A stretch of 38,476 nucleotides of DNA from a virus: positions 1 to 38,476 of IMG/VR virus record IMGVR_UViG_3300030098_005018; one strand, written 5' to 3'. This document shows, in pieces, positions 10,201-30,403 of this stretch. Numbering within the stretch: position 1 is the first letter of the stretch; each line of letters opens with the position of its first letter. The notes under the pieces were generated by a model. The model was not told the origin of the DNA. It saw nothing but the letters and a program-made list of their open reading frames with translations, and ran no database searches. The position numbers and the translations under genes were made by a program.

Positions 10201-13200
10201 TTACCGTTAAAGTCATTGTACTTTTTAATAAATTCTAAAGCGTTTTGCGCATCAAATTTAGTAAAATCAAAACCTTTCTTTGTAACACCTTGAAATAAAC
10301 CACCGAATATTCTACCAACACCTTCTAATGCCACGCCATTTTCTAAACTTATATCAGAATTTTTAACACCCCTCATAGCGTCAGATAAAACAGCAAACCA
10401 TTCTTCGTTATACTCTCTAGTTCTTTTATCTTTAGTGTATAAATCCATCTTATCTTTGTGGAGCTTTAAAGCCGCTTGTATTTTAGGATCAGTAGAGGCC
10501 TCTAACTCAGAAATCACTTGATTTCTAACAGTTTGTAATTCAGAAACGGGTATTGCGTCTAGTATAAAATGAAATGCCTCGTGGTGAACAACGTTAGAAG
10601 AAGACCAATCACCGTAATTTGCGTCGATGTTTTTTCTTACGTTATCATTTACTATTACAGCAACATTACCTAAGTTAGCGCCATTAACATCACCATTGTA
10701 TAGTGATTGTAAATTAAGAAAAACCTCCAAAGGATTTCTACCGGCTTCTTGTTCTAAGTTATTTCCTTCAATAAAATTTCTTGCATCTTCAACGTTGTCA
10801 AATGTCATTACTGCTTTATCAGCAAAAAATCCTTCTGTCTGATTATTTATCCATTCAGCAAACTCTAAATTTGTTGTAAGATCATTTTTCCAAATCTCTT
10901 TTAGATTATTAAGTTGTAATTCCTTTATTTTGTTTTTTATTATTTCACCTTTTATATCGTTTTGTATAGTGTTAGGATTTAATCCACCGGTGTCTTTTTG
11001 TTGTTTTTTAGTTTTTTTGTTTTCGTTTTCAAGCTTAGTTAAATCTTTTTTTAAATTAGCTATTTCAACTAAATTGTCAATTACTTTAATTTTTTCGTTA
11101 TTACTTAGGTTTTTATACTTTGTGTTGTTAATAAAATCTTCTTGTGCTTCTAACTCTGTATATACCTCGTCTAATTGATCAATAGTAATTACACCGTCTT
11201 TTTGATACTGCTCGTATTCTTTTTTTATCTGATTTATAGATTGTCTAGTTAATTTTAAATCTTCACCACCAAACCAACCAGTTTTAGCTCTAAGTTCTTT
11301 TGTTGTTGTAGTTGCAACCTTACCAGCACCAACTAAAGGTCCAGTTGACAATAAGGCTTGACCACCAGCTTCAGCTAATCTTTTTATATTAGCATCTTTA
11401 TTACCGTAATATCCAGTTGACACACCAACACCAGTTATACTTGTTCCCTCTTGAGATGTTTCGGTAATAAACTCCATAAAACTAGCTTTTCCTAAATCTT
11501 TACCTACAGTTTCATAACCTTCGCTTAAAAATTTACCAAGTCTACCTCTTATCAAATGTCTTCCTAAACTTTTAGGTGCAAATTTAGTTGCTTTACCTAT
11601 AACAAAAAAGTTAGACACAAGGTCTAAACCAGCATTTGTAGCCCCAACCATTACAGCGGGATTTAAATTAGCTTCTCCCTTATCTAATATATCAGCCATA
11701 GCAGCGGCTCTTTCTTCTTTAGGAAGTTTTCTAAAAGCTTCTAACGCTTTTTCTATATCTTCACTACTTTGCTTTTGCCATTCTTTAGATCCAACTTCAA
11801 CTATTTGAATACCCTCTCTTGTGGGTGGAAACATTTTTTTAGCAGCTTCTATTTCTATAATATCTAAAGCAGCGCCACCACCCTCTTGTATATATGTAGA
11901 GCCACCCATGGTAAGAACTGCTGAAATCATTTGAACTGTTTGATCACCTAGCATACCCTGCCACTCATCTATAGTTAAATCTGGATCAGATATATCTTTT
12001 CCAAATATAGTTGGAACTCTAACGTCTTCTAACTTTTTTTGATATTCTTGTGATTCAGCTAGTTTAAATCCTATATCTTTATTTAAATTAGCTTTATAAC
12101 TTTCGAGATACTTTATTCTATCAGCGTTTGTTTTAAATCCAGTTGGTTCATCGGAAATATAATTAGCAGTTGGATCTAATTTTTTCAACTCTTCTATTTC
12201 TTCATTGGTATTTTTCAAATCAATACCTTTGTGAAGTATATTAACTTCTTTTAAAGCTTTAGGAAATTTTATTGCAGCTGTAATATACCCTTGTCTAATG
12301 TAATCTGAATCAAAATTAGTTATCCAAGACGGTAAGTGCATATCTTCAGCTTCTTTTCTTAATTTATCATCTAAAGTGCTACTAAACCTACTTTCTACCG
12401 CTTTTAAAACACCTTCTTGTATATTTTTTAATTCTTGATTTTGCTCAAATAACTCATTTTGCTTTTTGGTGATTAATTGTTTTAACTCTTTGTTAGCTAA
12501 TTCTACTTGTTTTTGATCAGTAAGATCGTATTTGTTTTTTAAATCGTCTATAGTTGTTTTAGTAAAATCTTCTAAAGTGACATTTATTTCTTCAAATATT
12601 TCTTTAATACCGGGTAAGTTTTCAGAATGTAAAGCTGCGTTATAAGCAGATTTCATGTGTTCGCCAAGTTCGTCTGAAGATAAATCTTTTATTTTTTTGG
12701 ATTTACCGTCTTTTCCTTCTACTTTATATGTATCAACTGTATTCCAAGCGGAGGCATACACTTGTGGGTTAACTGGAGATCCTTGTGAGTGTTTTTTAAC
12801 AAAATCATTTACATCTTGCGCTGTTTGTTTTGAACTGGCACCCCAAAGTTTATCAGAATATGTACTAAAACCAAATAAATCTAAGTCCGTTTGAATCTCT
12901 AATTTTTCTCTATCTTCTTTTGGTTGACCCTCAAATTTTGGTGGTGCATAGATTATAACTTTGTCTGTACCAAAACCAGCTTGATCAAACTCAAAACCTA
13001 AACCTCCAAATTTTTTCTTAAATCTATTTATAGCTTGTCTTTCCGGAACATCTACATCTTTCATTGTCACCTGTGGTAATTCCAAAGAACCATCGTCCGA
13101 CCCTGATTCCATAACGTTTGACTCCGTCGTTTGGGTCTCTATCGAGGAGTCTGTTTGGTTTCCCAAAGCAAGAAATTCTTCCTTTGAAATAATGTTTTCT

Positions 13201-13271
13201 TCTTTTTTATTTTTCTCTTCAACATTTGGTGTTAAAGATAAAAACTCTTCCATTGATATATTTTCTGGCAT
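4296..13271 (-). CDS. Giant polyvalent virion protein: zincin, HAD phosphatase with inserted kinase, LPD38-like C-terminus
   Basis: The protein is 2991 aa from the ATG at 13271, which lies just past the stop of the 720-aa gene. An ATG at 13349 would overlap that gene by 77 bases and is less likely. The N-terminus repeats (S)MEEFLSL and SKEEFLAL. A zincin site HEAFH (897-901) is followed by EEWFA (956-960), a plausible third ligand. DFDDT (1938-1942), LTAR (2215-2218) and FADDA (Asp2272/2273) are HAD motifs I, II and IV. Between I and II lies a Walker A, GGAGSGKS (1972-1979), with a zeta-toxin or polynucleotide-kinase-like domain. The region about 2610-2900 (FFNIRSAVLQQ, WTDFQKLAEETQQSAKP) resembles the LPD38 domain of large polyvalent proteins. 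An Asp6 tract is at 2806-2811, and the C-terminus is Lys-rich. Position matches T7 gp16, so it is probably ejected with the genome and may act on peptidoglycan proteins, nucleic acid ends or host defences. Stop is TAG. Confidence 0.85.
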   Translation of the reverse strand: MPENISMEEFLSLTPNVEEKNKKEENIISKEEFLALGNQTDSSIETQTTESNVMESGSDDGSLELPQVTMKDVDVPERQAINRFKKKFGGLGFEFDQAGFGTDKVIIYAPPKFEGQPKEDREKLEIQTDLDLFGFSTYSDKLWGASSKQTAQDVNDFVKKHSQGSPVNPQVYASAWNTVDTYKVEGKDGKSKKIKDLSSDELGEHMKSAYNAALHSENLPGIKEIFEEINVTLEDFTKTTIDDLKNKYDLTDQKQVELANKELKQLITKKQNELFEQNQELKNIQEGVLKAVESRFSSTLDDKLRKEAEDMHLPSWITNFDSDYIRQGYITAAIKFPKALKEVNILHKGIDLKNTNEEIEELKKLDPTANYISDEPTGFKTNADRIKYLESYKANLNKDIGFKLAESQEYQKKLEDVRVPTIFGKDISDPDLTIDEWQGMLGDQTVQMISAVLTMGGSTYIQEGGGAALDIIEIEAAKKMFPPTREGIQIVEVGSKEWQKQSSEDIEKALEAFRKLPKEERAAAMADILDKGEANLNPAVMVGATNAGLDLVSNFFVIGKATKFAPKSLGRHLIRGRLGKFLSEGYETVGKDLGKASFMEFITETSQEGTSITGVGVSTGYYGNKDANIKRLAEAGGQALLSTGPLVGAGKVATTTTKELRAKTGWFGGEDLKLTRQSINQIKKEYEQYQKDGVITIDQLDEVYTELEAQEDFINNTKYKNLSNNEKIKVIDNLVEIANLKKDLTKLENENKKTKKQQKDTGGLNPNTIQNDIKGEIIKNKIKELQLNNLKEIWKNDLTTNLEFAEWINNQTEGFFADKAVMTFDNVEDARNFIEGNNLEQEAGRNPLEVFLNLQSLYNGDVNGANLGNVAVIVNDNVRKNIDANYGDWSSSNVVHHEAFHFILDAIPVSELQTVRNQVISELEASTDPKIQAALKLHKDKMDLYTKDKRTREYNEEWFAVLSDAMRGVKNSDISLENGVALEGVGRIFGGLFQGVTKKGFDFTKFDAQNALEFIKKYNDFNGKSPGLVLPGVKGKVDVQLPKKKGIDFKLSKAVGSQTTVKEDLFKETNNALIEALEMYGMKNPERLLSEDINVRKQLAKEWEALGDSRFWIGTVIGEKWRRFIEVNYLQKRDKAANYDLYKDQILDVVTTGIEKGDNGIPFLVRSWKPAEEGGRSLTSHIFGEIETRLMAKGGIIDRKFPQFDKFTSAIDMSRDDGGMDIAGDLDVDTVLAAEERKRKRKENLEEDRYRKLIGIDDKFATEIKNEIRDVLLSGDLGLISDFAWTQRFSKAAQKKLFKIIKDEMKDYEAFLKKTRKPFVKHAHTSDLVQMEKNEKNKIFTKLKAVNASPEKIKIALLEGLIQPFEVKSMTQGPNIYEKVDTKEQEFIDFMKVRGRKDAFVKNNINIMAMDAVFDVLLNQTVKVGGKQVRVLDEFIRQQREKGLPHVSNVLGIVKERINRDQDVKFSKTVRGFNPFELKVFYGKLDVFGDILNVTNVGDEAAVYQAVYSVWGEDYNQTKLKALSNDLFKLVKRYATIDKNHTNLKTQPEQKLNEYLHDNITAAALEMNLAEFLDLKNDKGKFIKISNAFDEIGRINNQRAEIVTLGRKLIKKYGEQIALMMMVHASGMYATSTKIGRGKFKVNEKGIVYEVTPKDIGKEKFGDQRYQVFDGKKDFNKNVLKKIFPNIKLTEAGNLKKIQEVTVKGEKVEIDTSLLAEKSKEAMEDRDFKARKAQAKLSELFVRDMAQHYKDQIKKGALDKTDFAMLMMSMASNMQSPLKRAANLKYIYKDKKGKKYKGELRYEHMIPTNYMVMKITDAYMNDGEIDLDALFEEYTVAVIPTTMDDVLEEMGYQYVMPIGFEVGQSARVRYYNMSTYGHPDLYAIESIDPKDKGKVYGEGIANIKFSRNINKFNTLNNAIVEARKIKFSSKPRGITVLDFDDTLATTKSGVRATMPNPDGTPKPNRKVIFLAGGAGSGKSNVVKQLGLEDQGFKIVNQDISLEWLKKNSGLPADMRDLTKEQKSTLGKLQAEARRIAKRKMMKFKGNGNGVVVDGTGGSINVMTKLVNEFKEKGYDVSMLFVETSLDVALQRNKARKERSLLDVIVRKNHEAVQGNKDGFKEMFGNRFMQVNTDNLTMKDPMPSDLVSKMDDFVSGYEKRRLDAEEFASEGADLLAQGAEFDFSEFNVVTEGQTAPLFNKALKLQKKFGNEDMFVLTARPPESAPHIFEFLKANGLNIPLKNITGLGNSTAEAKALWMADKVGEGYNDFYFADDALQNVQAVQNMLDQFDVKSKVQQAKVKFSKGMNTEFNNILEDVTGIESKKRFSAIKARKRGESKGKFRFFIPPSHEDFVGLLYNFIGKGKEGNKHRDFFEEALVRPLNRADRELNTAKQAIANDYKSLNKEFENVKKKLNKKTPDGDFTYQDAIRVYLWDKHDYNIPGLSKTDQQGLVDLVMNDVELQTYAETLNVISKQEAYVNPTESWEAGDIRIDLDDATGRVGREQFFAEFFENADVIFSQENLNKIEAAYGADMVTALKDILYRTKTGRNRPSGQNALVNKFLNYLNGSVASTMFFNIRSAVLQQMSMVNFINFADNNIFAAAKAFANQPQYWADYATIFNSDFMKQRRGGIMTDVNGAELAASVKNAANPTQAVIKKLLELGFLPTQIGDNNAIALGGATYYRNRINTYLKQGLNQKEAESKAWTDFQKLAEETQQSAKPWMVSMQQASPLGKVILAFQNVTSQFNRLGKKAFLDLKNRRISPEYRNASNPQFQSDLGNISRIAYYFAIQNLIFYSLQSALFMVMFDDDDDDERWLKKRERMIMGSIDSVLRGTGVWGAAAATLKNMAIKWHEQREKGYNADESAVLMEMLNVSPPLGIKARKLVNAEKTLNYNRKVIDEMETFDIDNPQWSAVTNYVEATTNVPLNRLYNKTQNVRESLNNQHTAFERALMFSGWSKWNLGIGDSEKIKEIKEKTKSKKKKKKHGGRKILR
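4838..4855 (+). repeat. CAT trinucleotide tract (Asp6 in the giant protein)
   Basis: Six consecutive CAT units on the plus strand encode six Asp (2806-2811) in the giant protein, within MFDDDDDDERW. Slippage here would add or remove Asp residues without changing frame. Confidence 0.9.
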
Positions 13272-13272
13272 A

Positions 13273-15435
13273 TTATTTTTCTTTAAATGTTCCGTCTTTT
13301 TGATATATAAATGTTTTATCTCCCCTAGAATATTCATTACCAACAACAAATTCTGGAGATAATAATTTTTGTCCTTCTTCGCTCATTAGGTATTTAACTA
13401 AATTCTGCATATCCATTTCGTTATTAACATCGTAATCCCTACCCTGAACGTTTATTCTTTCGTTTAAGTTAAACGGGGTAGATATTTGAAGATTAGGAAA
13501 AGCTTTTGACAATAAGAAATCTACGTCATCGTCATCAATATTTCCTTTAAATAAATCACGCAGAGTATATTCACCAATAGGTGTATCAAAGTTAATTTCT
13601 TGACCTTGCGTTATAGGTTTGACAACTTGTTCTTTTATAGGTTTGTATGTTTTTGTTTTTGTTTCTGGTGGCGTTGTTGTTGTTGTTGTTGTTGATTTTC
13701 CAGATATATAACCAACTTTATCATCAAAACTTAAATTGAATGCCAAATCATCTTTTGTAAGATTTTCCCACTCAGCATTTTCGTTAAACATCATATACTG
13801 TCCATTTTCTTTCTTCCACTTCACTCCATTCCAAGCCGTTCTACGAGGTATATCGTTAGGATCATCGTTTAATAGTTTAACATCTGGATCGATAGATGTT
13901 TTAGGTATTGACTGTTTACCTATAAAGTAATTTCTACCAGTTCCTGTTGTAGTACCACCTGGTTCTTTTCTTCGTCTCATACCTTCGTTAAACATGTTTT
14001 CGCCGTCTCTTTTATATCTTTCTAACGCAGCTTCTCTAGTTACGTTAACGTTGTAATTTTTATCAGATCTATTTAAAATAGCGCTAACAACTTTTAAATA
14101 ATTATCAGCACCAACACCTTCTCCAATAAAATCAGCCTCTGTAATACCCTTAGAAGTTCCAGGTACATCGACTATATCACTCGCAATACCACTACCGGAA
14201 GATGTTAAAGTACTTAAGTATTTAAATATTTCAGCCGAATCGACACTTTCGTTAGTTAAATCCGCAGCAAAACTAGTAGCGTTCATACCTAACGGTTTTC
14301 TAATCGCAGCGTGTAAAACATTTTCGTCTTCCAAAGCAGGTCTTAAATCATTTACAAATTTATCGCCTAAATAACTTGTACCGTTAATAGCACCTCTAGT
14401 ATCTTGAGCAAGAAATAATTTGTCTATAGAACTTTTAACTTTAGGATTAATTTTTGGAGTTAATAAAGTGTTTGTTTCACTACCGTCTATAACAAAAGGA
14501 TCAGCATTTGGATCTGTTTCTACTTGACCTAAATGATTAATACCAGTTACTATTTTACCTGAAGAATCTTGTAAAGCAAAAGCAAGTTCATCATTAGCGT
14601 TTCTAGTTAAAACAGCTTTAAAACCTTTAAACTCTCCATCTTGTATAACACCCGTTTTAGTTTTATAAGCTGTTAATGCGTGTTGCATTAATAGATTTAA
14701 TTTACCAGTGGATTCAAAATCAACATTACCACTGGTTAAAAGATCACTATTAAAATTATCAGCATTTTCTAAAAACTGGATATCAGCTATCAACTGATCT
14801 CTTTCTCCTTTAAGCTCATGTCTTTTTTTTCTACTCCCAGCATCTGTTTTACCCCAAAGTTTTCTTAAATCTTTTCTAATATTTCTTAATTCATTACCAA
14901 TAGTAACGGGTTGAATTTTTGACTGCTGTTTCATCCACTCGTCTTTTGATAAAACAGGTTTAGTCTCTACTTTGTTTGATTTTTCTATTTCTAATTTATA
15001 ATTCTCGTATTGACTTTTAGCATCACCACCTTGCCTTTTAACTGGGTCTTGTAAAACCCAATCTTTAAACTCTAAAATCTCTTTTGGCTTTACATCTGTT
15101 TTTTGACCTTCTACATATTTATCATAACGATCATCAATTTGAGTTTCAGTTATAATTTGATTTTCTTCATCTCTATATACCATGTAGTTATCACCCTTGA
15201 TATTTAGATTTTCATTTTTAATAGCTTTCTTTGCCGCTTGTAATCCTAATTCGCCCACCGATTGACCAACTTCTGACCAAGTGGCAGCTACTTGCTTCAT
15301 TGTTCTATCATAGCTTTCAGCCATTTTTTCAAACGTTCTACTAAGATCTTTTGGCACATTTGCCATACCCATTCTGTAAGCTGCTGCTACTAAACTTTGA
15401 TCTGCTCTTATATCCATATTCATTTTTTTTGCCAT
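13273..15435 (-). CDS. Large internal virion protein candidate (T7 gp15 position)
   Basis: This 720-aa protein has no motif I recognise. Residues 1-75 are helical and charged (DLSRTFEKMAESYDR, TMKQVAATWSEVGQSVGEL), and a basic stretch follows near 190-215 (LRNIRKDLRKLWGKTDAGSRKKRHELK). A low-complexity linker with seven consecutive Thr precedes PPETKTKTYKP near residues 580-600. The C-terminal 100 residues look folded (FDTPIGEYTLRDLFKG, DVDFLLSKAFPNL). It lies between a gp14-like 246-aa gene and the giant gp16-like gene, which is the T7 position of internal core protein gp15; a virion-internal or ejected role is inferred from that alone. Its stop lies 1 base from the giant gene's start, so the two are probably translationally coupled. 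Confidence 0.75.
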   Translation of the reverse strand: MAKKMNMDIRADQSLVAAAYRMGMANVPKDLSRTFEKMAESYDRTMKQVAATWSEVGQSVGELGLQAAKKAIKNENLNIKGDNYMVYRDEENQIITETQIDDRYDKYVEGQKTDVKPKEILEFKDWVLQDPVKRQGGDAKSQYENYKLEIEKSNKVETKPVLSKDEWMKQQSKIQPVTIGNELRNIRKDLRKLWGKTDAGSRKKRHELKGERDQLIADIQFLENADNFNSDLLTSGNVDFESTGKLNLLMQHALTAYKTKTGVIQDGEFKGFKAVLTRNANDELAFALQDSSGKIVTGINHLGQVETDPNADPFVIDGSETNTLLTPKINPKVKSSIDKLFLAQDTRGAINGTSYLGDKFVNDLRPALEDENVLHAAIRKPLGMNATSFAADLTNESVDSAEIFKYLSTLTSSGSGIASDIVDVPGTSKGITEADFIGEGVGADNYLKVVSAILNRSDKNYNVNVTREAALERYKRDGENMFNEGMRRRKEPGGTTTGTGRNYFIGKQSIPKTSIDPDVKLLNDDPNDIPRRTAWNGVKWKKENGQYMMFNENAEWENLTKDDLAFNLSFDDKVGYISGKSTTTTTTTPPETKTKTYKPIKEQVVKPITQGQEINFDTPIGEYTLRDLFKGNIDDDDVDFLLSKAFPNLQISTPFNLNERINVQGRDYDVNNEMDMQNLVKYLMSEEGQKLLSPEFVVGNEYSRGDKTFIYQKDGTFKEK
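13673..13693 (+). repeat. GTT trinucleotide tract (Thr7 linker in the 720-aa protein)
   Basis: Seven consecutive GTT units on the plus strand read as a run of Thr codons on the minus strand, forming a low-complexity linker (STTTTTTTPP) before the C-terminal domain of the 720-aa protein. Copy-number changes would be in-frame. Confidence 0.9.
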
Positions 15436-18943: not shown

Positions 18944-21900
18944 TTATTCCGATGGTGCCTGGCCATTAGTGTTAAACGTACCGTCACCGTTAGGTTGGTT
19001 ATTTGGAACACTTGGTCCAAACGTGTACGACATTATACTAGACGGGAAGGTTGGTGGACCAGCCGCGTAGTAAGTACCGTTTTGTTCTGGGTAATGAGCA
19101 TTAGAACTAACATCAGCACCTGCAGGAACTGTTAATCTATTTCCAGGTGTGTTTGCAGCAGCATACTCAGGGTGTCCTGTTGGAAGTTTTGTTCTGTCAA
19201 TTATAGGGAATAAAGCTAATTCAACTTTAGTACCGGCTTTGATAGACCCTTGTTGATTATTTGTTCTTGCTTCAAATGGTATTGTTTTCATATAACCACT
19301 ACCACCACCTTGGCCCCAATGTGTAAACATAAACATGATAGAAGCGTAACTAACGTTTTCAGGAAGACCACTATTAAAGGACCAATGGCTCGGAGCATTT
19401 AGTCTTAAGTTTGGCCACCATGTTTGATAATCTGCATTGTGGTTTATAGTTTTTTGTCCAGGTATTTGAGCGTTATAAGGTTTCCAAGCTGGTGAGTTGC
19501 TTGTTGTAGCTTGACCATTATGCTCTAGTCTCCACCAACCATCACTTGTAGTTACAGAAAGATGTGTGTAAGGAGTACCAGCATCATCTGTAACCCTAAC
19601 CCAAGCTACAAATTGTACGTGTGTATTGCCAGGATTCATTAAACTCAAATCTATATTATTTTGTACATTAAGATTGAGAGTACAACCACTGCACGTTCCT
19701 GGCCAGGAAGGCATTCCAAAATAAATAAACTTACCATTAGAGCCAGTTGTTTTTTCCCAGTGAGCATAATAGTTAGTACTTGCGGATGGTACAAACTCGT
19801 TAAAAGCTTGTACTAAATTACACGTACCGTCGTCAACAACCGCTACTGGATCGTAGTTCCAAGCTTCAGGGTTAGTACATCCCATAGGAGCTTGCACGCA
19901 GCTAGATGTATTACCGTTCACATCGTCACTAATAGTACAGTTTGGGCAATAATTATATGCGTTTGGATCCATACATCCTATTTCAAAAGGAATTTGATAA
20001 CTTGGCGCGCATTGTCCTTGAATATTATCCTCATAATTTCCACTAGCTTGATACATTATATAGTTAGAATCCCAATTTGCATTCGGATTAGATCTGTTTA
20101 ATAAAACTATAGTACCAGAAGATTGTCCATTTATCGTATTATCAGCAGCAACAAGACTCGTTAAGTCAAATGTTCTTGGATACCAATTAGCGTGGTTACC
20201 TTGTGTAATTGGGGTACTATTACTACCTTGCCAGCTCTTCACTACATCTGATGCGCTTGTAGCTCCCAAAGTTTGAAGTTGTGCTGATGGAAACATTTCA
20301 ACTTTATCATTTGGTACTTTGCTAAAATTCATAGAGAATGAAAGCTGACCACCAGGAGAATCAAATCCATTATTATTTACCTGTGTTGTAACGGTTGCGT
20401 TCCACGAAGGACAAATGTGGTTACAAACCGGTGTGGAGATAGTCATCGCATTTGGCGTAGTGTTAGCCGGTATAATACCATCTCCATTATAGTAATAACC
20501 AGTACCCAATCCACTCGCATGATTCTGCCCAAGATCTGGATAACCATCATCAGCTGGACTTGTACTATTACCTGAACCAAAAGGTCCCGTACGACGTACA
20601 GCTATAGGCATAGTTCCATCCCAAGAAGGATTATCATTCATACAACCAAATACAGTCGCTATACAACTACCGTCATCAATATTAGCATTAGGATCATAAT
20701 TAAATGCTGTTGGATCTGTACAACCATTAACTATAAGAGTTTGACAAGCGTTAGTATTATCATGGCAAGTTACATTTGCATCATATTCTAAATAAAGAGG
20801 ATCGTTACACCCAGCAGGCATTATACAAGATCCATCATCTGTATTGGCAAGAGGATCGTAATTACAAGCTGATACGCTAGTACAACCATATACTGGTGTT
20901 GGTGGTGTTGAGTGTATAACCGCGTAAGGCGAGCCGTTGTAATCTGCAGGCGCTGGTGGATTGGTTCCTCCAACGCAAGTTGGATATATCTTAAATCTAT
21001 ACTCAGTATCTACCGTTAACCCGTTTACTATAAACCTAAGAGAACCAGGTGAGTTCAACGAACCAGAACTTAAATTACCATTAGTAACAATATAAGTTGT
21101 TAATAATGTATCGTTGTTGTCATAAACTTCTACATTAAATTCTAATATTTGCGCAATATTTATTTCGCCAGGCGTTGCGGGTCCAGTGTCATTGTTATGA
21201 CCAAACCAACCATTTGGATTGTTAGTGGTACCTTCCACCCACTCTAATTCTATAGTTGTTTGGCTATCTGCATAAACACCAGGATTATCAGCCATAATAT
21301 TTTGACACCAGTTACAAGTTAAACCAAAGATGAAAGAAGTATTACCCGACGTACAGCCACCAGCTAGAGGTGATGTACCAGCAGGAGCGTCAAAATTATC
21401 AGCTGAAGGAATATGACATTGATAACAACTACCATCTTCAGTGTTTGCTGCTGGATCATAATTACATAAATTAGGATTCGTACAACCGTAGACAGGATAA
21501 ATACAACTACCATCATCTGTATTACAGTTGTTAGAACATGGGTTCATTGCGTTAGAATCTGTACATCCAAATATTATAGGAATACAACTACCATCATCAA
21601 CATTGGCGCTAGGATTATAGTTGAATTGTGTATTATCCATACATCCATATACAATTGCTATACATGAACCATCATTAACATTGGCGTTAGAGTCATAATT
21701 AAGTGCAGTTGGATCTGTACAGCCAAGATACTCACAACTACCATCGTCAGTATTTGCATTAGGATCATAATTATCAGCGTTACCATCAGTACATCCATAC
21801 GTTACAACTACACAACTACCATCATCAATAACCGCGCCCGCATCATAGTTGAACGCTGTAGGGTCTGTACAACCTTCAGGGCTTCTGGCTACTGGTGTAG

Positions 21901-23293
21901 ATTGTAAAACACCTAAACCTTGAAAAGTAGAGTTATTATTATTAAAACTAGAAATGTCAACTATACCATTCTCATTAAAAGTAGTACCTTCTTTACCTCT
22001 AATATAATTAAACCATTTACCTTCTTTTTCTATAAACTCTTTAATACTACCCTCTTGTTTGTCGGTTAAAATGTATTCAACGTACCAACCATCTTTATCT
22101 TCTAAATTGTGATAATTAGGATTGTCATAAGTTCCAGTAACAGTTGTAGTTCCAGGTAAATAAGTATCATATGTTAATAAAGAATCAATACGAGATTGTG
22201 TTCCTTCATAATTAACAGTGTGAAATGTTTTGACAATTTCTGGATTATTATTTATTATAGTTGTTATACTCGATGGCGTGTGTGTTCCGTAAAAAGAATT
22301 ATAAAAACTTTCATCAACGCCGTAACCTGCACCTTCTACATGGTGTATCCAAGGCTCACCTCTTCTAAATGTATAATAATTATTATTACAACTAATAGCG
22401 TTTTCGGGAGCAAAAGATTTGAAACTAACCCATCCTTTAACGTTTTCTTTAAAAGAAACAGTTGTGTTTACTTCTACTCTATTATTCCAAAATCCTTTTA
22501 ATGTAACGTTATACTCGTCTTTCTGATCATCGTAACTACCAATAACATGTTGAGATAATTTTAAATTATCTCTAAACCAGTTTTTCATTCCGTGATCAGA
22601 GATTGCTGTTAATCCATCTTTTGACAATCTCATTATAGCTCCTCTAGCTTTATCAGAAAAATAAGCTCTATAAGATTGTGAAACAAAAGATTCCGGATTT
22701 TTAGATATACCAAACTCTCCTATAAAAGGCACAGCTTGACCCAAAACATTTTGATTAGCGGTTAATTGTGGGTTTCCGTCAGCATTAAATACAGCATCTT
22801 TATTAGCTAATATTTTAATTATTTTATCCTCACATAATGTTATTAAATCAGTATCTCTAGTATGAAGTTTTTGTATACTACCGTATACTGGATTTATATT
22901 TTTAGTAATTTTTTCAGCTTGTATAAACTGATTTAAATTATTTGTATTTGAAAGTTCGTTATACAATCCAGAATATATTAAACCATTTTTTACTCTTTCT
23001 TCCTTATAATCTTCAAAAATAGTAGATACTGTTACACCTGGTTTTAAAAATTGATTGTTAAAACTGTCTCTTATTCTGTTAGATTCCACACCGTTTCCAA
23101 ACGAATAACAATTATACCAGTTAACTAAAAAAGTATTATTATGATAATTAGTTAAATCTAATTTAATTTCGTTAGTTACGCCTTGCGAAAGAGTACCAAC
23201 CTCAAGTATCTTTACAAAAACAATACTACCATCAGGTCTTGTTAACTTGATGTAATCATTTACGTTTAAATTATGATCTGGATTGTACGTCAT
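18944..23293 (-). CDS. Tail protein with propeller-type N-terminus and Cys-rich adhesin repeats
   Basis: This 1449-aa protein is composite. Residues 1-about 455 continue the tail/stabilisation fold of the two preceding genes (NPVYGSIQKLHTRDTDLIT, KIIKILANKDAVFNADG, FGISKNPESFVSQSYRAYF). From about 473 to 625 come six copies of a GCTD...NYDP...DDGSC repeat. A fibronectin-III-like beta domain follows (about 640-795: TTIELEWVEG, FRFKIYPTC-like strand), then more repeats (about 801-885), a further beta domain, two repeats (about 1103-1155) and a final C-terminal beta-rich domain (about 1155-1449) with WWRLEHNG and SYASIMFMFTHWGQGGGSG. It has no signal peptide, unlike the other repeat protein in this window. 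It is probably a tail spike/fibre that binds the host surface. Disulfides implied by the cysteines would have to form after cell lysis or not at all. Confidence 0.82.
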   Translation of the reverse strand: MTYNPDHNLNVNDYIKLTRPDGSIVFVKILEVGTLSQGVTNEIKLDLTNYHNNTFLVNWYNCYSFGNGVESNRIRDSFNNQFLKPGVTVSTIFEDYKEERVKNGLIYSGLYNELSNTNNLNQFIQAEKITKNINPVYGSIQKLHTRDTDLITLCEDKIIKILANKDAVFNADGNPQLTANQNVLGQAVPFIGEFGISKNPESFVSQSYRAYFSDKARGAIMRLSKDGLTAISDHGMKNWFRDNLKLSQHVIGSYDDQKDEYNVTLKGFWNNRVEVNTTVSFKENVKGWVSFKSFAPENAISCNNNYYTFRRGEPWIHHVEGAGYGVDESFYNSFYGTHTPSSITTIINNNPEIVKTFHTVNYEGTQSRIDSLLTYDTYLPGTTTVTGTYDNPNYHNLEDKDGWYVEYILTDKQEGSIKEFIEKEGKWFNYIRGKEGTTFNENGIVDISSFNNNNSTFQGLGVLQSTPVARSPEGCTDPTAFNYDAGAVIDDGSCVVVTYGCTDGNADNYDPNANTDDGSCEYLGCTDPTALNYDSNANVNDGSCIAIVYGCMDNTQFNYNPSANVDDGSCIPIIFGCTDSNAMNPCSNNCNTDDGSCIYPVYGCTNPNLCNYDPAANTEDGSCYQCHIPSADNFDAPAGTSPLAGGCTSGNTSFIFGLTCNWCQNIMADNPGVYADSQTTIELEWVEGTTNNPNGWFGHNNDTGPATPGEINIAQILEFNVEVYDNNDTLLTTYIVTNGNLSSGSLNSPGSLRFIVNGLTVDTEYRFKIYPTCVGGTNPPAPADYNGSPYAVIHSTPPTPVYGCTSVSACNYDPLANTDDGSCIMPAGCNDPLYLEYDANVTCHDNTNACQTLIVNGCTDPTAFNYDPNANIDDGSCIATVFGCMNDNPSWDGTMPIAVRRTGPFGSGNSTSPADDGYPDLGQNHASGLGTGYYYNGDGIIPANTTPNAMTISTPVCNHICPSWNATVTTQVNNNGFDSPGGQLSFSMNFSKVPNDKVEMFPSAQLQTLGATSASDVVKSWQGSNSTPITQGNHANWYPRTFDLTSLVAADNTINGQSSGTIVLLNRSNPNANWDSNYIMYQASGNYEDNIQGQCAPSYQIPFEIGCMDPNAYNYCPNCTISDDVNGNTSSCVQAPMGCTNPEAWNYDPVAVVDDGTCNLVQAFNEFVPSASTNYYAHWEKTTGSNGKFIYFGMPSWPGTCSGCTLNLNVQNNIDLSLMNPGNTHVQFVAWVRVTDDAGTPYTHLSVTTSDGWWRLEHNGQATTSNSPAWKPYNAQIPGQKTINHNADYQTWWPNLRLNAPSHWSFNSGLPENVSYASIMFMFTHWGQGGGSGYMKTIPFEARTNNQQGSIKAGTKVELALFPIIDRTKLPTGHPEYAAANTPGNRLTVPAGADVSSNAHYPEQNGTYYAAGPPTFPSSIMSYTFGPSVPNNQPNGDGTFNTNGQAPSE
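19815..21876 (-). repeat. GCTD/DDGSC Cys-rich repeat arrays in the tail protein
   Basis: Three groups of the same repeat type occur within the 1449-aa gene, at roughly 21418-21876 (six units), 20640-20892 (three units) and 19815-19985 (two units). Each unit has GC(T/M)D at its start, NYDP in the middle and DDGSC at its end. Units vary at the residue after GC and in the spacer (IAIVY, IPIIF, EYL). Two beta-sandwich domains separate the groups. Confidence 0.85.
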
Positions 23294-23304
23294 TTTATAT
23301 TTAT

Positions 23305-26300
23305 TTAATTAGGTATTTGTAATCCACCCCAGTTGGTAGGATTTGTTGGATCTACGTTGTCTGGATCTATAGTTATATCTCTACTTAACTCAACCCAATG
23401 TGTGGATGGGTTGATATTTGTGATCGTTGTACCAGGTGGAATCGCATTACTATTTTCATGTTGCACCACTGAACCTATAGGAGCAAAATCTGTTGGATCA
23501 GCTATCTTTATAGGATAAAAATCACTAATAGCATGATAAATATCTAAATCAGTTTCTAATTTTTTAGGTTCTGTTTCCCAAACCGCAGGATTTTCAGGTA
23601 GCACATTTTCGTCCGGGCGGATAGTTATTTCTTCAACAAATTCTATAGTATAACCCAAAGCATCTGTACCAACCTCATCGTGACCAGCGTTAGCGTTATG
23701 CCCCATTGTATTTCTAAAATAATTTAAATTTTTAGCTGAATTTGGACTTAAACCATTTACTGGAAATTGATAAAATTTCATTTTATCTCCAGCGCCTGAT
23801 GTTCCTTTTTTTAACCCACCAGCCACGCTTAAGCCGGTAAGTTTTTTACCACCATTATAATTTTTAAAATAAACGCGGAAACTACCGTTATTGTCCTCTA
23901 TCTTAGAAACCATAGGATACATTACGTCTCCTTGTCCATTGTTTTCTTGCGCTGTTATCTCATCACCGTTTGGCGCGTGTGTTATAACCATACCTAATTC
24001 TATACGTCTTGTATCAGAGAAAATATTACCACTCTGTTGGTTAGCAAATTTTGATGGACCAATTGTAGTGCTACCCGAAACCTCATTTATACTTACTAAA
24101 TCCACCCAATTATTACCATGTTGCTGGGCCACCATTTCACATTCTATCACCTGGCCATTAGTTAAAGCACCAGTAGTGTTTTCCCAAGGATTCCATGTTA
24201 ATTTTTTATCTACTGTAATTCTAAAGTTTTTTGTAAAATTACTAGCTCTCAAAAAAGTACTTGTGTGGTATGGGCCTGGAAATTGTTGGCCAGGTATAGG
24301 ATATGTTGATGCGTTTATTGTATAACTACTACCATCTTTAAAAACAGCTTGTTCCGCGTTTACACGCTTACCATTTTTAGTTAAAACTTGTAAAGGATAA
24401 CAACTTCTTCTCAAAACCCTTTGATTGGAATTAGCATCAGCATTGTCGACAAAATCTTTATTACCACCTGTTAGTAAGCCTGTGTAAATATCTTCATATC
24501 TAAGTTTAAATCCAATATCTACATTTACTATTGTATATATTTCACCTAAAGGATCTTCTTTAAACCTAAACTGACTACCAACAGCTATATTTTTAATAAA
24601 AGCAGCTTGAGTTGCTGTGTAATTTAAATTAGTTTCTTCTAAATTGTAAAAAGAAGCATCGGATTGATGTAGATAAGAATCAACAATAGCAGATAGCGAG
24701 CTACCCCAAGTATTCGCCCCTAAATCGTATCCGCCACCCTGCCGTTCTGTGGTTGTAGCCCACTCGTTAGGTTGTATACCTCCAAAACCTATATCAAGAA
24801 TAGCGCCTTGATCACCACTATGATCATTTTTTATTCCAGATGAGTACCCATTACCAGGATTTGGTAAACTGTCCCAACCAGAAGATGGAGAATTATTACT
24901 ATTTTCAAACTGACCAGCACTCCAACCTTTATCAAAAAACCAAACATCTTCAAAAGATTGATTATTAGAGTCAATACCATGTATATCCATTTTTTCTTTT
25001 CTACTACTTATACCATCTGGATCTACATTAAACCCTCTAAAATAAGCGTCGTATAACTGCCATCTAGACCCAATAGCATCACCAGTATCAGTACCACTAA
25101 CACCAAAAGAACCAAGTTCGTTTAAAGTCCCCATGTGTTCACCTATCTCGTTAGTTGATTGTAGATAAGATCTCCAACTTCTAGTATTAGTAATCGCTGC
25201 TCCCATCACCCCTGGGCTTAAATCAGTTGCGCCTTGGGTAATATCACTTATTTTATCGTGAAAAACTCTAGGCGTCTTACTTACAGGATCAACATGTTTT
25301 AATATTCTATCAGTATCTGCTTCGGTTTCTAATCCATAAATTTTTCTAGAACCATCAGCCACGGATTTATACGTTGTGTCTCTAACAAGATTAACTGGTT
25401 CTACAATGTTTCTAACAAAAACTTCATCATTATATATTTTTACAAAAAATCTACCGTCAAATTTTAAATTATCATCAATAGTTGATTTATATATATTTAA
25501 AAAAGTATTATCAACTATAACGCTTGGATTTATACCGGTGGGATCATTTGTAAACTCATTTATTTCACTACCAAGTGGTACTTTTAAAGTAAAATTCCAT
25601 TTAGTAGGTGAATCTGGATCATCAACATTTAACGCTATTAATTCATATCTTTCTGTTACTTTACCTATAGATGAATTAGATATTGTAATAAAATATTTAT
25701 CTTTAGGTCTACTATTAAAGTCATTATGTAAATTTGAAATACTAGAACTAGATACTCTATCATATTCTATTTGAAAAGTGTCGTCACCTTCAAAAGGCAA
25801 ATCGTTATCTGAAAAAAGTTTAGTACTAGAGGTAAGATTATCATGACCTTTAGTACTAATCATAAATTCAACTCTTTTTATATTTTCTGGAGCTTCATTT
25901 TTTATATCAATAATTTTATACCTAGCAGTTTCTTTTATTAGTTTGTTAGAACCAACACCTTTTTTTAATATTAAAAAATCATCTATGTCAACTTTATTCC
26001 TATCAGACGAAGGAAACGCTATCCAAATATTATCATCTTCCGCGTTGTAATATCTATCCATTGCTAGATTATAATACTCATTAGTATTATCTTTGATATA
26101 AAATTTAAAATATTCCATGTTGACTGGAATACCTGTATTGTTTATAGTTATCCTTAATTCGTTTGCGTTTTCTGCTTTATTTTTACCAACTGATACCGTA
26201 GCATTTTCATTAGTTAAAACCGGTGTCTGTCTACCATATTTATCCGCATAAACTATACCCAGTTGGTATTCTCTTAAAGATTTTATAGAGGCTATACCAT

Positions 26301-27465
26301 GAGCGCCTGGCGTTAAGGTTTTAGATAATATTTCTGGAAATAAATCTACTTTATAATCAATACCATTATCTTTTTTTAAGTCATAATTTTGTAAGTAATT
26401 ACCATAAACCAATCTATTACCTACTATTTCTTGAGCTGTAGCTGCCTTAGGTACATTATCCCAGTGTCTTAATAGTTGATTTGATTGAGTTATACCATTT
26501 TTTAAAGTTTCAGAAGTTATTTTATATTCTGCAATATCAAGATCTTTTATAGTATCAACTATATAAACATTGTTAGACCCATCTTCTTTATAAAGAATAT
26601 CAACACTAACAACGTCCGCAGGCATACCTGAGTTTAAACCAGTTAAAGATATATATTTTAACTTGTTTGTCATTGCTAAATTATAACCCTTTTGCGGGTG
26701 ATAATCAAATCCACCCGGAGCAAAAACTGGCTGTGTCCATGGAGAAAAAGCAGAGTACTCTCCGTCTAAATATTTATATCTATAAGCAAATCTAGGAAAT
26801 TTAAATTCAAATAATTTTTCTTCTTGATCAAAAAGGTCTATTGTATATTTTCTATAAGCTTCTCCAGGGGAAACTGAAGGTGGAATTCCTAAAACAGAGT
26901 TTACACGCACTTCACATTGAGCCTGGTCAGCTACAGTAATAACTCTTTCAACTTGAACGTTATCAAGAGCAAATCTAGCCATTTCATTATTACCATCCGC
27001 TTCTGCTTTAAACACTATACTATTAGCATATGTTGATTGACCGTAAGGTGTAGAATCTATTGTGTTAGGTGTAAATATAACATCTTTAATTTCAAAAGTT
27101 CCAAAAGGTCCACCGGACGAATCACTAGTAGCGTTTTGTGTCCATTGAAAAAAGTGAACCCTATCGTAATTACCATCTTGAGTAAAATCATTATCCGCAA
27201 TATACATTTGGATTTTTCCTCTTGCTGGTAACCACTGGTTAGCATTATCTTTAATTTGATTTATTGTAAATGTAATATTATATTTTTGAGCACCGCTTAA
27301 ATTATCGCTTGGATCTATATACCAAGAAATATCTTCTGTTAATTTAGTTCTAGCGTCAACAGCGGCTAAACTCCAATTACTTTGATTTGGATAAATATCA
27401 GCTAGATCTACGATGCGTAAATCGAAACCACTCCACTTCCATCTATATCTTATAGGAAAACTCAT
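23305..27465 (-). CDS. Tail/stabilisation protein, second part, with N-terminal jelly-roll
   Basis: This 1386-aa protein starts with a beta-sandwich of carbohydrate-binding-module type (about 1-177: KYNITFTINQIKDNANQW, ARGKIQMYIADNDF, then ARFALDNVQVERV). It continues as the body of a phage tail protein: EKLFEFKFPRFAYRYKYLDG near 214-235, GFDYHPQKGYNLAMTNKL near 250, and ENPAVWETEP...LDIYHAISDFYPI at 1291-1319. These motifs resemble very large tail proteins of marine tailed phages and, more distantly, T7 gp12-type tail tube B or crAss-like stabilisation proteins, as remembered and not searched. The 67 residues after 1319 contain a degenerate copy of ITIRPDE..PENPAVW (ITIDPDNVDPTNPTNW). The gene starts 22 bases after a TAG-TAA pair that ends the 515-aa gene, and the fold seems to continue across that break. 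Confidence 0.8.
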   Translation of the reverse strand: MSFPIRYRWKWSGFDLRIVDLADIYPNQSNWSLAAVDARTKLTEDISWYIDPSDNLSGAQKYNITFTINQIKDNANQWLPARGKIQMYIADNDFTQDGNYDRVHFFQWTQNATSDSSGGPFGTFEIKDVIFTPNTIDSTPYGQSTYANSIVFKAEADGNNEMARFALDNVQVERVITVADQAQCEVRVNSVLGIPPSVSPGEAYRKYTIDLFDQEEKLFEFKFPRFAYRYKYLDGEYSAFSPWTQPVFAPGGFDYHPQKGYNLAMTNKLKYISLTGLNSGMPADVVSVDILYKEDGSNNVYIVDTIKDLDIAEYKITSETLKNGITQSNQLLRHWDNVPKAATAQEIVGNRLVYGNYLQNYDLKKDNGIDYKVDLFPEILSKTLTPGAHGIASIKSLREYQLGIVYADKYGRQTPVLTNENATVSVGKNKAENANELRITINNTGIPVNMEYFKFYIKDNTNEYYNLAMDRYYNAEDDNIWIAFPSSDRNKVDIDDFLILKKGVGSNKLIKETARYKIIDIKNEAPENIKRVEFMISTKGHDNLTSSTKLFSDNDLPFEGDDTFQIEYDRVSSSSISNLHNDFNSRPKDKYFITISNSSIGKVTERYELIALNVDDPDSPTKWNFTLKVPLGSEINEFTNDPTGINPSVIVDNTFLNIYKSTIDDNLKFDGRFFVKIYNDEVFVRNIVEPVNLVRDTTYKSVADGSRKIYGLETEADTDRILKHVDPVSKTPRVFHDKISDITQGATDLSPGVMGAAITNTRSWRSYLQSTNEIGEHMGTLNELGSFGVSGTDTGDAIGSRWQLYDAYFRGFNVDPDGISSRKEKMDIHGIDSNNQSFEDVWFFDKGWSAGQFENSNNSPSSGWDSLPNPGNGYSSGIKNDHSGDQGAILDIGFGGIQPNEWATTTERQGGGYDLGANTWGSSLSAIVDSYLHQSDASFYNLEETNLNYTATQAAFIKNIAVGSQFRFKEDPLGEIYTIVNVDIGFKLRYEDIYTGLLTGGNKDFVDNADANSNQRVLRRSCYPLQVLTKNGKRVNAEQAVFKDGSSYTINASTYPIPGQQFPGPYHTSTFLRASNFTKNFRITVDKKLTWNPWENTTGALTNGQVIECEMVAQQHGNNWVDLVSINEVSGSTTIGPSKFANQQSGNIFSDTRRIELGMVITHAPNGDEITAQENNGQGDVMYPMVSKIEDNNGSFRVYFKNYNGGKKLTGLSVAGGLKKGTSGAGDKMKFYQFPVNGLSPNSAKNLNYFRNTMGHNANAGHDEVGTDALGYTIEFVEEITIRPDENVLPENPAVWETEPKKLETDLDIYHAISDFYPIKIADPTDFAPIGSVVQHENSNAIPPGTTITNINPSTHWVELSRDITIDPDNVDPTNPTNWGGLQIPN

Positions 27466-27487
27466 ATATTATTATTATTATTTATTA

Positions 27488-29035
27488 CTACCAATTCCCA
27501 ATTGTCCAATGAAGCGGCTGCCCAGTATTATAAGGATGACCAGTTGTACCTTGTAAAAGATCTCCATTTTTATTTATTAAAGGATTTACTGTAGTAAAAT
27601 TATTTTCAGCCCAATTACTTATAGTTCCTTTTATTCTATATTCAGTTAAAGGCACACCGTCAGGATTACCTGCTACATTATATTCTTTTAAAACAACCTC
27701 ATCTCCATTTTTCCATTCTAATTCAACAGGTAGTTGCGTACCTCCTGGATTAGTTAACTTCGCTCTAAAAGTATCACCAGCTTTTATTGAAGTAAAATTA
27801 GGTATATTTCCTTTAGAAGAATTAATTATATCATTAGGATTTTGATTAGTATCGCTAATTTGAATATAAGCATGATACTGTTTAAATTTATCTCTAAAAG
27901 TAACACCCTGTACGTCTATCATTGAAACCGGCGATCGTCTTATAACGGTAACATGTTCTTCGGTTACTAGATCTTGCATATGCGCATCAGGTTGCGCTGG
28001 GTTTACGACTTTAGTAGGAATAAGGCCATTTTGAACTGTTCCTTCTATAGATCTAGGTATATTTATTTTTTTAGGTTCAGAATAACCGTCTGTCCAAAAT
28101 AACATGTCATCTATTATATTTATACCTGTAATTCTATTATTATCTACGAATTTCAAAACCTCACCATTTATATCAACAAATACAAAGGTTGCGTCGTGCA
28201 TGGGAGATACTGTATTAGGATAACCATACAAACTTACATCTCTATCTCTTTCAGTATCATACTGTATTATATAATTATTGGGAAATTCGATTACAGATGG
28301 ATGACTTATTCTAACTGATTTCGCGTAGCTATCACCTCTAGTCATTTGAAGATATGCACGCATTTTTGTGCTACCATTGTTTTGAGTTACATCCATCGTA
28401 AACGTTGCGTGGTAATATGTAACACCAGGTTTATCCTCACAATATATATGCCCATGAGGTCTGTAACTATTATTACCTCCATTATCGTGATCTCCTTGAA
28501 CATAAAACTGCATTAAATGAGATTTGTTTAGACTATCACCACCCATATCTACATCACTTATACCGATTGATACGGTATATTTTTTACCACCCATACAATC
28601 TATTCGGTGAAAAAATCCCGCAAATGGCTGCGCACTTCCGTCGCCAGCGGTTGATATTAAAGCTGTGTAAGCGTTAGGACCACTATTACCAGCTGCATTA
28701 AACGAAACACCGCCTCCCAAGTACCAGTTGGTTTGACTTAAAAAGTTTCGATTTGTTATTAACTCTTCTCCTCTATCATTAACAAAATAATAAAGTTTAT
28801 TATTTTTTTCATCCGCAATACTACCGATGCATATACTATTATCATCAAGAACAGAACTAACGTTTGTTGCTATTAATCTATTACCTAATATATTTTGAGC
28901 AGTACCAATGTTAGAGTCATCTGACGTTGATATTTGTATATTCATAGCATCTCTATACTCACCATCAGCTACAAGTCTTTCATCGTGGTCTTTGTTCATT
29001 TTACCACGTAAAAAATTACGTTTAATATCTGGCAT
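27488..29035 (-). CDS. Tail/stabilisation protein, first part, with inserted jelly-roll
   Basis: This 515-aa protein begins with the signature FLRGKMNKDHDERLVADG, GEYRDAMNIQ and GTAQNILGNRL (residues about 8-53), the start of a phage tail/stabilisation protein. The expected core GSIADEKNNKLYYFV (71-85) and NNYIIQYDTERDRDV (253-267) are separated by an insert at about 89-250 that looks like a carbohydrate-binding jelly-roll (ITNRNFLSQTNWYLGGGVSF, KKYTVSIGIS, RAYLQMTRGD, SVRISHPSVIEF). The last 35 residues (NPLINKNGDLLQ, LHWTIGNW) look like the first strands of another jelly-roll whose remainder lies in the next gene. It ends in tandem stops TAG-TAA. It probably sits at the tail tip or hub; the fold assignment is by pattern, not by search. 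Confidence 0.78.
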   Translation of the reverse strand: MPDIKRNFLRGKMNKDHDERLVADGEYRDAMNIQISTSDDSNIGTAQNILGNRLIATNVSSVLDDNSICIGSIADEKNNKLYYFVNDRGEELITNRNFLSQTNWYLGGGVSFNAAGNSGPNAYTALISTAGDGSAQPFAGFFHRIDCMGGKKYTVSIGISDVDMGGDSLNKSHLMQFYVQGDHDNGGNNSYRPHGHIYCEDKPGVTYYHATFTMDVTQNNGSTKMRAYLQMTRGDSYAKSVRISHPSVIEFPNNYIIQYDTERDRDVSLYGYPNTVSPMHDATFVFVDINGEVLKFVDNNRITGINIIDDMLFWTDGYSEPKKINIPRSIEGTVQNGLIPTKVVNPAQPDAHMQDLVTEEHVTVIRRSPVSMIDVQGVTFRDKFKQYHAYIQISDTNQNPNDIINSSKGNIPNFTSIKAGDTFRAKLTNPGGTQLPVELEWKNGDEVVLKEYNVAGNPDGVPLTEYRIKGTISNWAENNFTTVNPLINKNGDLLQGTTGHPYNTGQPLHWTIGNW

Positions 29036-29038
29036 ATA

Positions 29039-30403
29039 CTAGTGTTTTATTTGTTTTGATTTACCTCTTAGTATTCTTGATAATTCTTCTAATTTAATAT
29101 TAGAAAGTCTAAGTTTAGCTTGTCTTATTGCCGCAAATCTTTCTTTTTTATATCTTCTAACAATATGTTCTGGGGTGTTGGCTCTAGTTGATAAAATAGC
29201 ATACATTATCCACTTGTATATAGCTTCTTCAGCAAACTTATGAACTATAGGGGTATTAATACCACTGCCAAGATGTACTCCGGTTGCTGACCAAGAAAAT
29301 TCAGTTTCGGAGGCACCTTCTGGATAATCTAATCCATCATTTATATAATCTATAATTATTGTTTTTCCTGATAAATTAGAACTAAGATGTAGATTTCCTT
29401 TTCGATAATCTATATAAAAAGAACCATTTACTTGAGCATGTTGAGGATCTAAACCATATCTTTCACCATGTATCGGCCAAAATACGTCATCTTCATAATC
29501 ATCATTATTATTTTCAGAAGGTGTATTATTCTTATAATTATCCCATGTTTTTGATTCGCTCTCATCACCAACTTTAACTACAGAAATATTATCTAATATA
29601 ACGTCACCATTTTGTGTGGGGTGTTCGTTGTAAATAAACAATTGACTTGCTACATATCCACTTGAACCATCACCTGCTGTAACTGTAGCTGTAAAAGTTC
29701 CATTCCCTGTAATATTACCAGCATCCGTAGAAATACCTTGTTCGTCTACTAATATTACCGCAAACCTACCACTTGTATAACCGCTTGCGTCGATTGAAAT
29801 TTTATAATCTTGGCCATTTATAATTGGAATCCCAGTTTGTTTTATTCCCACGTTTTGTGGAATTTGATAACCTCTAACAGCATTGCCATCAAATCCAATA
29901 AACCATCCAGTTAAAGGAAGACCACCGTCTAACGTTTCTTGATAAGAGGTTATTGTACCGGGTGTTTGTTCTTCCATATTTATTCCCCAACCGTGCTCTC
30001 TATCTTGAAAATCACCATTAACTATTAATTCTCCTGAGGGTATATATTCCTCATTATCACCTAATAGATAATCACCATTGCTGTCAGTTTGATATCTAGT
30101 TGGGTTTGACGTTTTACTAGTTGGATATATAGGATGTTTTATACCAGCTGAGTCCACCCAGCTAATTTTTGTATAATTAATATAGTCTGGTGGTAGTGGT
30201 ACTTTTAAAGAAGCTGGTACTTCACATTCTTTTGATGATATAGATTTAAGTGTATCATAACTTAATTCTTGTAAAGCTCGCTGCGCGTGAAACGTAGCAT
30301 CTATTCTATTTACTTTTGATATTGTTTTTCCCTCACCAACATAAACTATCATAAATTGATTAATAATATCTTCAAGCGTTACATATTCGTTGGTTGCTGC
30401 CAT
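29039..30403 (-). CDS. Connector/tail protein with inserted carbohydrate-binding-like jelly-roll
   Basis: This 454-aa protein has a helical N-terminus (about 1-55: TLEDIINQFMIVYVGEG, RIDATFHAQRALQELSYDT) followed by VPLPPDYINYTKISWVD (68-84), a pattern of podovirus head-tail connectors and tail tube A-like proteins. Between about 124 and 280 there is an insert starting GELIVNGDFQDREHGW and ending GDVILDNISVVKVGDE, the classic start and end of CBM-type jelly-rolls (NGDF..W at the beginning, DNI near the end). After it the core resumes (VFWPIHGERYGLDP, GSFYIDYRKGNLHLS) and ends in helices (RRYKKERFAAIRQAKLRLSN). The insert may bind capsule or host glycans. It abuts both neighbours at 3-4 base spacing. 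Confidence 0.77.
   Translation of the reverse strand: MAATNEYVTLEDIINQFMIVYVGEGKTISKVNRIDATFHAQRALQELSYDTLKSISSKECEVPASLKVPLPPDYINYTKISWVDSAGIKHPIYPTSKTSNPTRYQTDSNGDYLLGDNEEYIPSGELIVNGDFQDREHGWGINMEEQTPGTITSYQETLDGGLPLTGWFIGFDGNAVRGYQIPQNVGIKQTGIPIINGQDYKISIDASGYTSGRFAVILVDEQGISTDAGNITGNGTFTATVTAGDGSSGYVASQLFIYNEHPTQNGDVILDNISVVKVGDESESKTWDNYKNNTPSENNNDDYEDDVFWPIHGERYGLDPQHAQVNGSFYIDYRKGNLHLSSNLSGKTIIIDYINDGLDYPEGASETEFSWSATGVHLGSGINTPIVHKFAEEAIYKWIMYAILSTRANTPEHIVRRYKKERFAAIRQAKLRLSNIKLEELSRILRGKSKQIKH

Follow-up and report, generated by a model that had tools for sequence, protein, structure and literature searches.

In phi-crAss001, the tail ends in the muzzle, a gate built as a hexamer with outer domains that probably touch the cell, and its protein, gp44, varies in length through insertions in the IG2 and crass-domain regions, as described by Bayfield 2023 (PMC10172136). 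In the 936 lactococcal siphophages, carbohydrate-binding modules (CBMs) are found in the neck passage structure, the major tail protein and the evolved Dit, with host binding shown (Hayes et al. 2019, PMC6669499), and the receptor-binding proteins of phages are reported to shuffle their domains commonly (PMC10684548).

The locus analyzed here resembles both systems in part. Its muzzle belongs by Pfam to the same family as gp44 and likewise follows a ring gene, but whereas gp44 is one 1371-aa chain, the muzzle here occupies three ORFs, and the modules are found in the ring-type protein, the propeller region and the IG1 position. As in the 936 phages, CBM-like modules occur in several structural proteins (here the ring-type protein and two muzzle sites); however, the phage type, host and proteins are different, and binding, which was shown in the 936 phages, is a plausible reading here. 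The modules share with CBM22, CBM27, CBM29 and CBM4 a predicted beta-sandwich fold over most of each module, with little sequence similarity. A literature search, outside whose range preprints and most subscription papers fell, turned up no published account of a split muzzle or of CBMs in a ring protein; as far as that search tells, the setting and the muzzle fission are new, while CBM decoration of phage proteins is already known.

The lower tail region

The window, that is, the whole stretch of DNA analyzed, is the virus record IMGVR_UViG_3300030098_005018 (38,476 bases). Because the cultured relatives of this phage infect Flavobacterium, Cellulophaga, Maribacter and Tenacibaculum, we infer that it is probably a marine, flavobacterial-phage-like relative of the gut crAss phages. 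Its minus-strand genes run in the order terminase, portal, 396-aa protein, virion protein (phrog_13704), and proteins of 255, 226, 454, 515, 1386 and 1449 aa. The region encodes the lower tail, with a ring-type barrel protein followed by the muzzle (the tail-tip gate). Cellulophaga phage phi38:1 (Pervagoviridae, Callevirus) and Maribacter phage Panino have the same gene order, with homologues of ring and muzzle, and their ring proteins are insert-free. Elsewhere in the window, a 3017-aa ORF with a TTG start (4296-13349, minus strand) contains a polynucleotide-kinase-like stretch at residues 1992-2143 (phrog_505, E 1.2e-5). The features of the lower tail region are as follows; relatives are cited by L numbers.

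29039..30403, minus strand: tail-barrel (ring-type) protein, 454 aa (phrog_13977; by position and partial fold only)
29561..30040, minus strand: module JR1, predicted beta-sandwich insert, ring residues about 122-281 (absent in phi38:1, Panino and L030; structure match)
27488..29035, minus strand: MUZ-A, 515 aa, N-terminal muzzle part (PF25731 crAss_MUZ)
28283..28777, minus strand: module JR2, propeller-region loop, MUZ-A residues about 87-251 (spacing versus relatives, profiles; L059 model at the homologous site)
27491..27604, minus strand: JR3 first-strand part, MUZ-A C-terminus (profile match at residues 460-493; ungapped match to L139)
27466..27487, minus strand: junction 1, MUZ-A/MUZ-B, 22 bases, all A or T, cutting JR3 (each of the three frames has stops at or around it)
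26938..27465, minus strand: JR3 remainder, MUZ-B N-terminus, residues 1-176 (profile; intact in one ORF in L139)
23305..27465, minus strand: MUZ-B, 1386 aa, middle of the muzzle (phrog_14478; 58% identity to L139 after JR3)
23294..23304, minus strand: junction 2, MUZ-B/MUZ-C, 11 bases, the D-to-E break common to relatives (stops in all frames)
18944..23293, minus strand: MUZ-C, 1449 aa, last propeller part and PF25729 crAss_MUZ_C, then Cys-rich repeats (Pfam, phrog_14478)

A muzzle protein spread over three ORFs

On the evidence of profile matches, the 515-, 1386- and 1449-aa ORFs together encode one crAss-type muzzle protein, each supplying a successive part. All three match phrog_14478, in order, and the Pfam muzzle models score above their curated cut-off of 27 at either end, with 31.9 bits for PF25731 (crAss_MUZ) in the 515-aa ORF and 42.1 bits for PF25729 (crAss_MUZ_C) in the 1449-aa ORF. 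When ten muzzle relatives were compared with phi-crAss001 gp44 by hhalign, the C-terminal part alone aligned (88%, E 2.8e-6), and phmmer searches of PDB sequences with four window proteins, together with profiles of the ring and muzzle relatives, returned nothing useful.

C-terminal to its crAss_MUZ_C domain, MUZ-C carries at least seven Cys-rich repeats of the form GCTDPxAxNYDPxANxDDGSC. Among the fetched sequences, duplicates included, 83 ORFs have at least three D[DN]GSC motifs.

The 454-aa protein is judged to be ring-type from its position and partial fold, since its gene comes before those of the muzzle, as gp43 precedes gp44 in phi-crAss001, and helices are predicted around beta strands. 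Compared by hhalign with single sequences of phi-crAss001 gp43 and gp40, it gave no match.

Modules inserted in the ring and muzzle

The earlier note, made from the letters and ORF translations, had proposed that jelly-roll domains are inserted in the 454-, 515- and 1386-aa proteins. The ORFs and the motifs it quoted lie where it placed them, and its limits for the first two inserts (124-280 and about 89-250) differ by a few residues from ours. Insertion is borne out for JR1, JR2 and JR3 by sequence comparison: insert-free relatives exist (phi38:1, Panino, L030, L015 and others), and among the relatives fetched none was found with these segments as part of the core.

In the ring, residues 60-100 and 326-390 of the 454-aa protein served as anchors. 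Their spacing is 225 aa in the window and reaches 521 aa among 129 ORFs, 12 of which, including phi38:1, Panino and L030, have the anchors less than 90 aa apart (57-69 aa); the insert-free ring proteins of phi38:1 and Panino are 283 and 290 aa long. The JR2 site in the propeller region measures 196 aa in the window; its length is at most 60 aa in 51 of 119 ORFs and above 130 aa in 60.

The third module had been described as the beginning of the 1386-aa protein. The greater part of JR3 is indeed found there, but the motif of its first strand closes the 515-aa ORF, and the gene break therefore cuts the module. A profile built from nine relatives with an intact module at the JR3 site gives 15.4 bits at MUZ-A residues 460-493 and 46 bits at MUZ-B residues 51-201. 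In relatives without this insert the alignment runs on across the position, in phi38:1 from residue 367 of the 515-aa protein to residue 213 of the 1386-aa protein, and in L015 from residue 472 to residue 175; the muzzle of phi38:1 is a single 1324-aa ORF lacking both inserts 2 and 3. In L005, L015, L019 and L055 the intermediate domain at the IG1 position is present and module 3 absent. JR3 sits in the domain that separates the first propeller part from the next, which probably corresponds to IG1. The spacing between these parts is at most 60 aa in 11 of 113 ORFs, 61-230 aa in 88 and above 230 aa in 14, and is not measurable in the window because the gene break intervenes.

MUZ-B residues 6-17 show a weak likeness to L139 that is suggestive only (24 of 1000 shuffles scored as high), and a search for close relatives with the N-terminal module of MUZ-B alone found none. 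One alignment seemed by eye to show the module start duplicated on either side of the break, but this reading was dropped because 246 of 500 shuffles scored as well. In the muzzles of L017 and L041, the IG1-position domain has a further module-like insert nearer its start, which opens with CDFSQGS.

Fold and family of the modules

Comparison by hhalign relates the three module types to one another: JR1 and JR3 at 99.6% (E 5e-25), JR1 and JR2 at 87% (E 4e-6), and JR2 and JR3 at 71% over part of their length. Only the larger profiles join them; five JR1 relatives set against individual sequences of JR2 or JR3 produced no match that could be used.

The ring fold was modelled on the window's own protein and the muzzle-site folds on relative L059, with low to middling confidence (mean pLDDT 57 and 66, respectively). 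Between residues 122 and 281, the limits of the insert, the ring model matches CBM22 (Z 10.2, rmsd 2.8, 128 aligned), CBM27 (Z 9.7) and CBM4-2 (Z 9.3), and over about the same residues hyaluronan-, porphyran- and alginate-binding modules. The L059 model matches CBM29 at the JR3 site (residues 478-668, Z 10.0) and CBM4-2 at the JR2 site (residues 87-266, Z 9.3). These Z values are not far above the range of 7-8 that the tool calls common, and the match lists also include domains that do not bind glycans, from meprin, ephrin receptors and toxins. By Foldseek, the ring model matches a neck passage structure protein of phage LP1005 (E 3.5e-4), while a plain search with the L059 muzzle model gave no match at E 0.001 or better.

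The predicted CBM-like beta-sandwich thus extends over most of each domain, for JR2 and JR3 by way of the L059 model, both models being of low confidence, in line with the fold that had been predicted from the letters. Against the 25.9-bit cut-off of Pfam CBM_4_9, JR1 scores 14.9 bits, and JR2 and the MUZ-B part of JR3 do not match; one of 25 module family members reaches E 0.01 or better. The module profile retrieved nothing useful from PDB sequences (best E 0.015). Because the predicted folds match CBMs and the Pfam score is below the cut-off, we class the modules as CBM-like by fold, and not as members of CBM_4_9.

Distribution and replacement of the modules

Many IMG/VR contigs carry related modules at these ring and muzzle sites. 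The three JR profiles identify 90 domains in 73 of 224 sequences, contigs fetched twice still being counted, and none in 1774 shuffled ORFs. The JR1 and JR2 profiles contain the window's own domains, and window scores from them are not independent; the JR3 profile, built without the window domain, gives 27.7 bits on the N-terminus of the 1386-aa protein. In the first 137 sequences the module profiles found 56 domains: 20 in the ring, 11 at the IG1 position (plus that of the window), 10 at the propeller site and the others elsewhere, with 8 of the 56 placed after the last propeller part, ahead of the C-terminal domain.

On a tree built from 45 modules, from which identical pairs and modules at odd sites were left out, four sites need 7 changes, as compared with a shuffled mean of 24.6 and a possible minimum of 3. 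The ring, propeller and IG1-site labels each change three to five times, with at least two changes each forced by well-supported branches. Exchanges between sites can be seen in L079 and L080, where JR2-type modules, otherwise found at the propeller site, are in the ring, and in L017, L063, L064 and L065, where JR1-type modules are at the propeller site. Most modules therefore seem to keep their site and diverge there, apart from a few changes of site or separate gains, and hopping is occasional.

Comparison with L139, the closest relative found, indicates that modules have been gained, lost or replaced while the cores were conserved. Core identities are 59% and 74% in the ring, 58% in MUZ-B after the module and 66% in MUZ-C. 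In the modules, the ring insert is at the level of chance (140 of 300 shuffles as high), JR2 has 27% identity (11 of 300) and JR3 30% (0 of 300). The ring protein of L139 (6064-7428) is also 454 aa long, and its insert at the same site is unrelated to that of the window.

Breaks in the muzzle gene

In 224 sequences, the two main muzzle anchors are in one ORF in 155 cases and in more than one ORF in 20; 38 muzzles are incomplete and 11 sequences have no anchor. For the counts of fission we treated L139 and L147 as one contig and set aside three of the 20, L020, L057 (Panino) and L166, whose overlapping frames are likely indels. The deposited Panino muzzle goes out of frame near its end (L057, about 11560-11790), where two open frames (946 and 378 aa) overlap, which points to a single indel.

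The muzzle fission is real and recurrent, and apparently stable in one lineage, judging from the contigs compared. The D-to-E break, at which MUZ-B and MUZ-C part, is found in 11 distinct sequences and can be placed on the tree with 2 changes, where shuffles need 10.8; in an earlier tree of 89 rows, the D-to-E-split rows then known (the window, L059 and L066) were joined at 99/88. The E-to-F break occurs in five sequences with five changes on the tree; these breaks (L008, L030, L130, L194 and L220) fall where the last propeller part is followed by the C-terminal domain. Some other relatives have more than 1000 inserted residues between those same parts.

The break inside JR3 is seen in the window alone, one contig, while a module at this site is kept in one ORF in ten relatives (L059-L066, L077 and L134) and in L139. 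The 20 bases before the start of MUZ-B have an A+T fraction of 1.0, and those before MUZ-C 0.9; a fraction of at least 0.9 precedes 14 of 18 listed genes, versus 1.2% of 173 internal in-frame ATGs. A frameshift as the cause of the JR3 break was rejected, since there are stops in all frames and the third frame has no match to the module profile.

Interpretation and alternatives

The explanation we prefer, and hold with reasonable confidence, is that CBM-like modules are carried in loops of the ring and muzzle proteins and that the muzzle is encoded in three ORFs. Each gene break would have gained a stop and a usable start, and the pieces of the muzzle would assemble without covalent bonds, which is suggested because JR3 and the surrounding IG1-position domain have parts on both chains; the first strand of JR3, from MUZ-A, would pair with the rest, from MUZ-B. 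Whether the JR3 break belongs to a living phage at all can be questioned, as it is seen in a single contig whose closest relative, L139, is intact there, and an assembly or sequencing artefact, or a decaying phage, could produce such a picture. We consider this improbable: no single indel mends the break, the start region of the new ORF consists of A and T only and resembles those of other genes, and the second break is common to independent contigs. Translation could also join MUZ-A and MUZ-B by ribosome bypass or frameshifting over the 22-base junction, given that MUZ-A and MUZ-B each hold a portion of a single module that has an intact homologue. Such a mechanism is very unlikely, with several stops in two frames and a well-placed ATG; moreover, no relative needs it, and the junction resembles the other start regions of this phage.

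As for function, modules on the muzzle flank and on the ring above it may add attachment points for surface or matrix polysaccharide; should the phi-crAss001 stoichiometry apply, each virion would carry about 12 of them on the ring and 2 x 6 on the muzzle. By analogy we lean towards their binding host-surface or matrix glycans as auxiliary attachment sites. The modules may instead be structural, thickening or bracing the tail or contacting tail hubs or fibres with no glycan bound. Their clustering by site on the domain tree is what would be expected of parts fitted to their place, and ring-hub contacts are described by Bayfield 2023 (PMC10172136). We find a structural role the less credible and rather unlikely, since fast divergence and replacement next to conserved cores are expected of surface recognition, the best fold matches are largely CBMs, and the comparable CBMs of the 936 phages bind their hosts (PMC6669499). 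A more speculative extension, which we regard as quite doubtful, is that JR3 is a two-chain domain acting as a non-covalent clasp, such that the hexameric gate would be a complex of up to 18 chains, joined in part by the CBM-like modules, and binding of these modules to the cell surface could loosen the clasp and help to open the gate.

The earlier note had read the inserts as repeated acquisitions of surface modules giving the virion many weak glycan contacts, for example with algal or capsular polysaccharide. This interpretation is partly supported, the contacts and their targets being conjectural: the insertions and the CBM-like fold agree with it, and so do the forced site changes, though modules for the most part stay at their sites; that the 515-, 1386- and 1449-aa ORFs make up one muzzle, and that a gene break cuts the third module, had been overlooked.

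Significance

The locus is a well-supported case of CBM-like modules in crAss-type tail proteins. It extends such decoration, described in siphophages that infect Gram-positive hosts, to crAss-type podophages of Bacteroidota, in which barrel and muzzle carry it and fibres play no part. It also shows that the crAss-type gatekeeper can be divided among separate genes, and the excised modules and separate chains may provide handles on host finding and on the assembly and opening of the muzzle.
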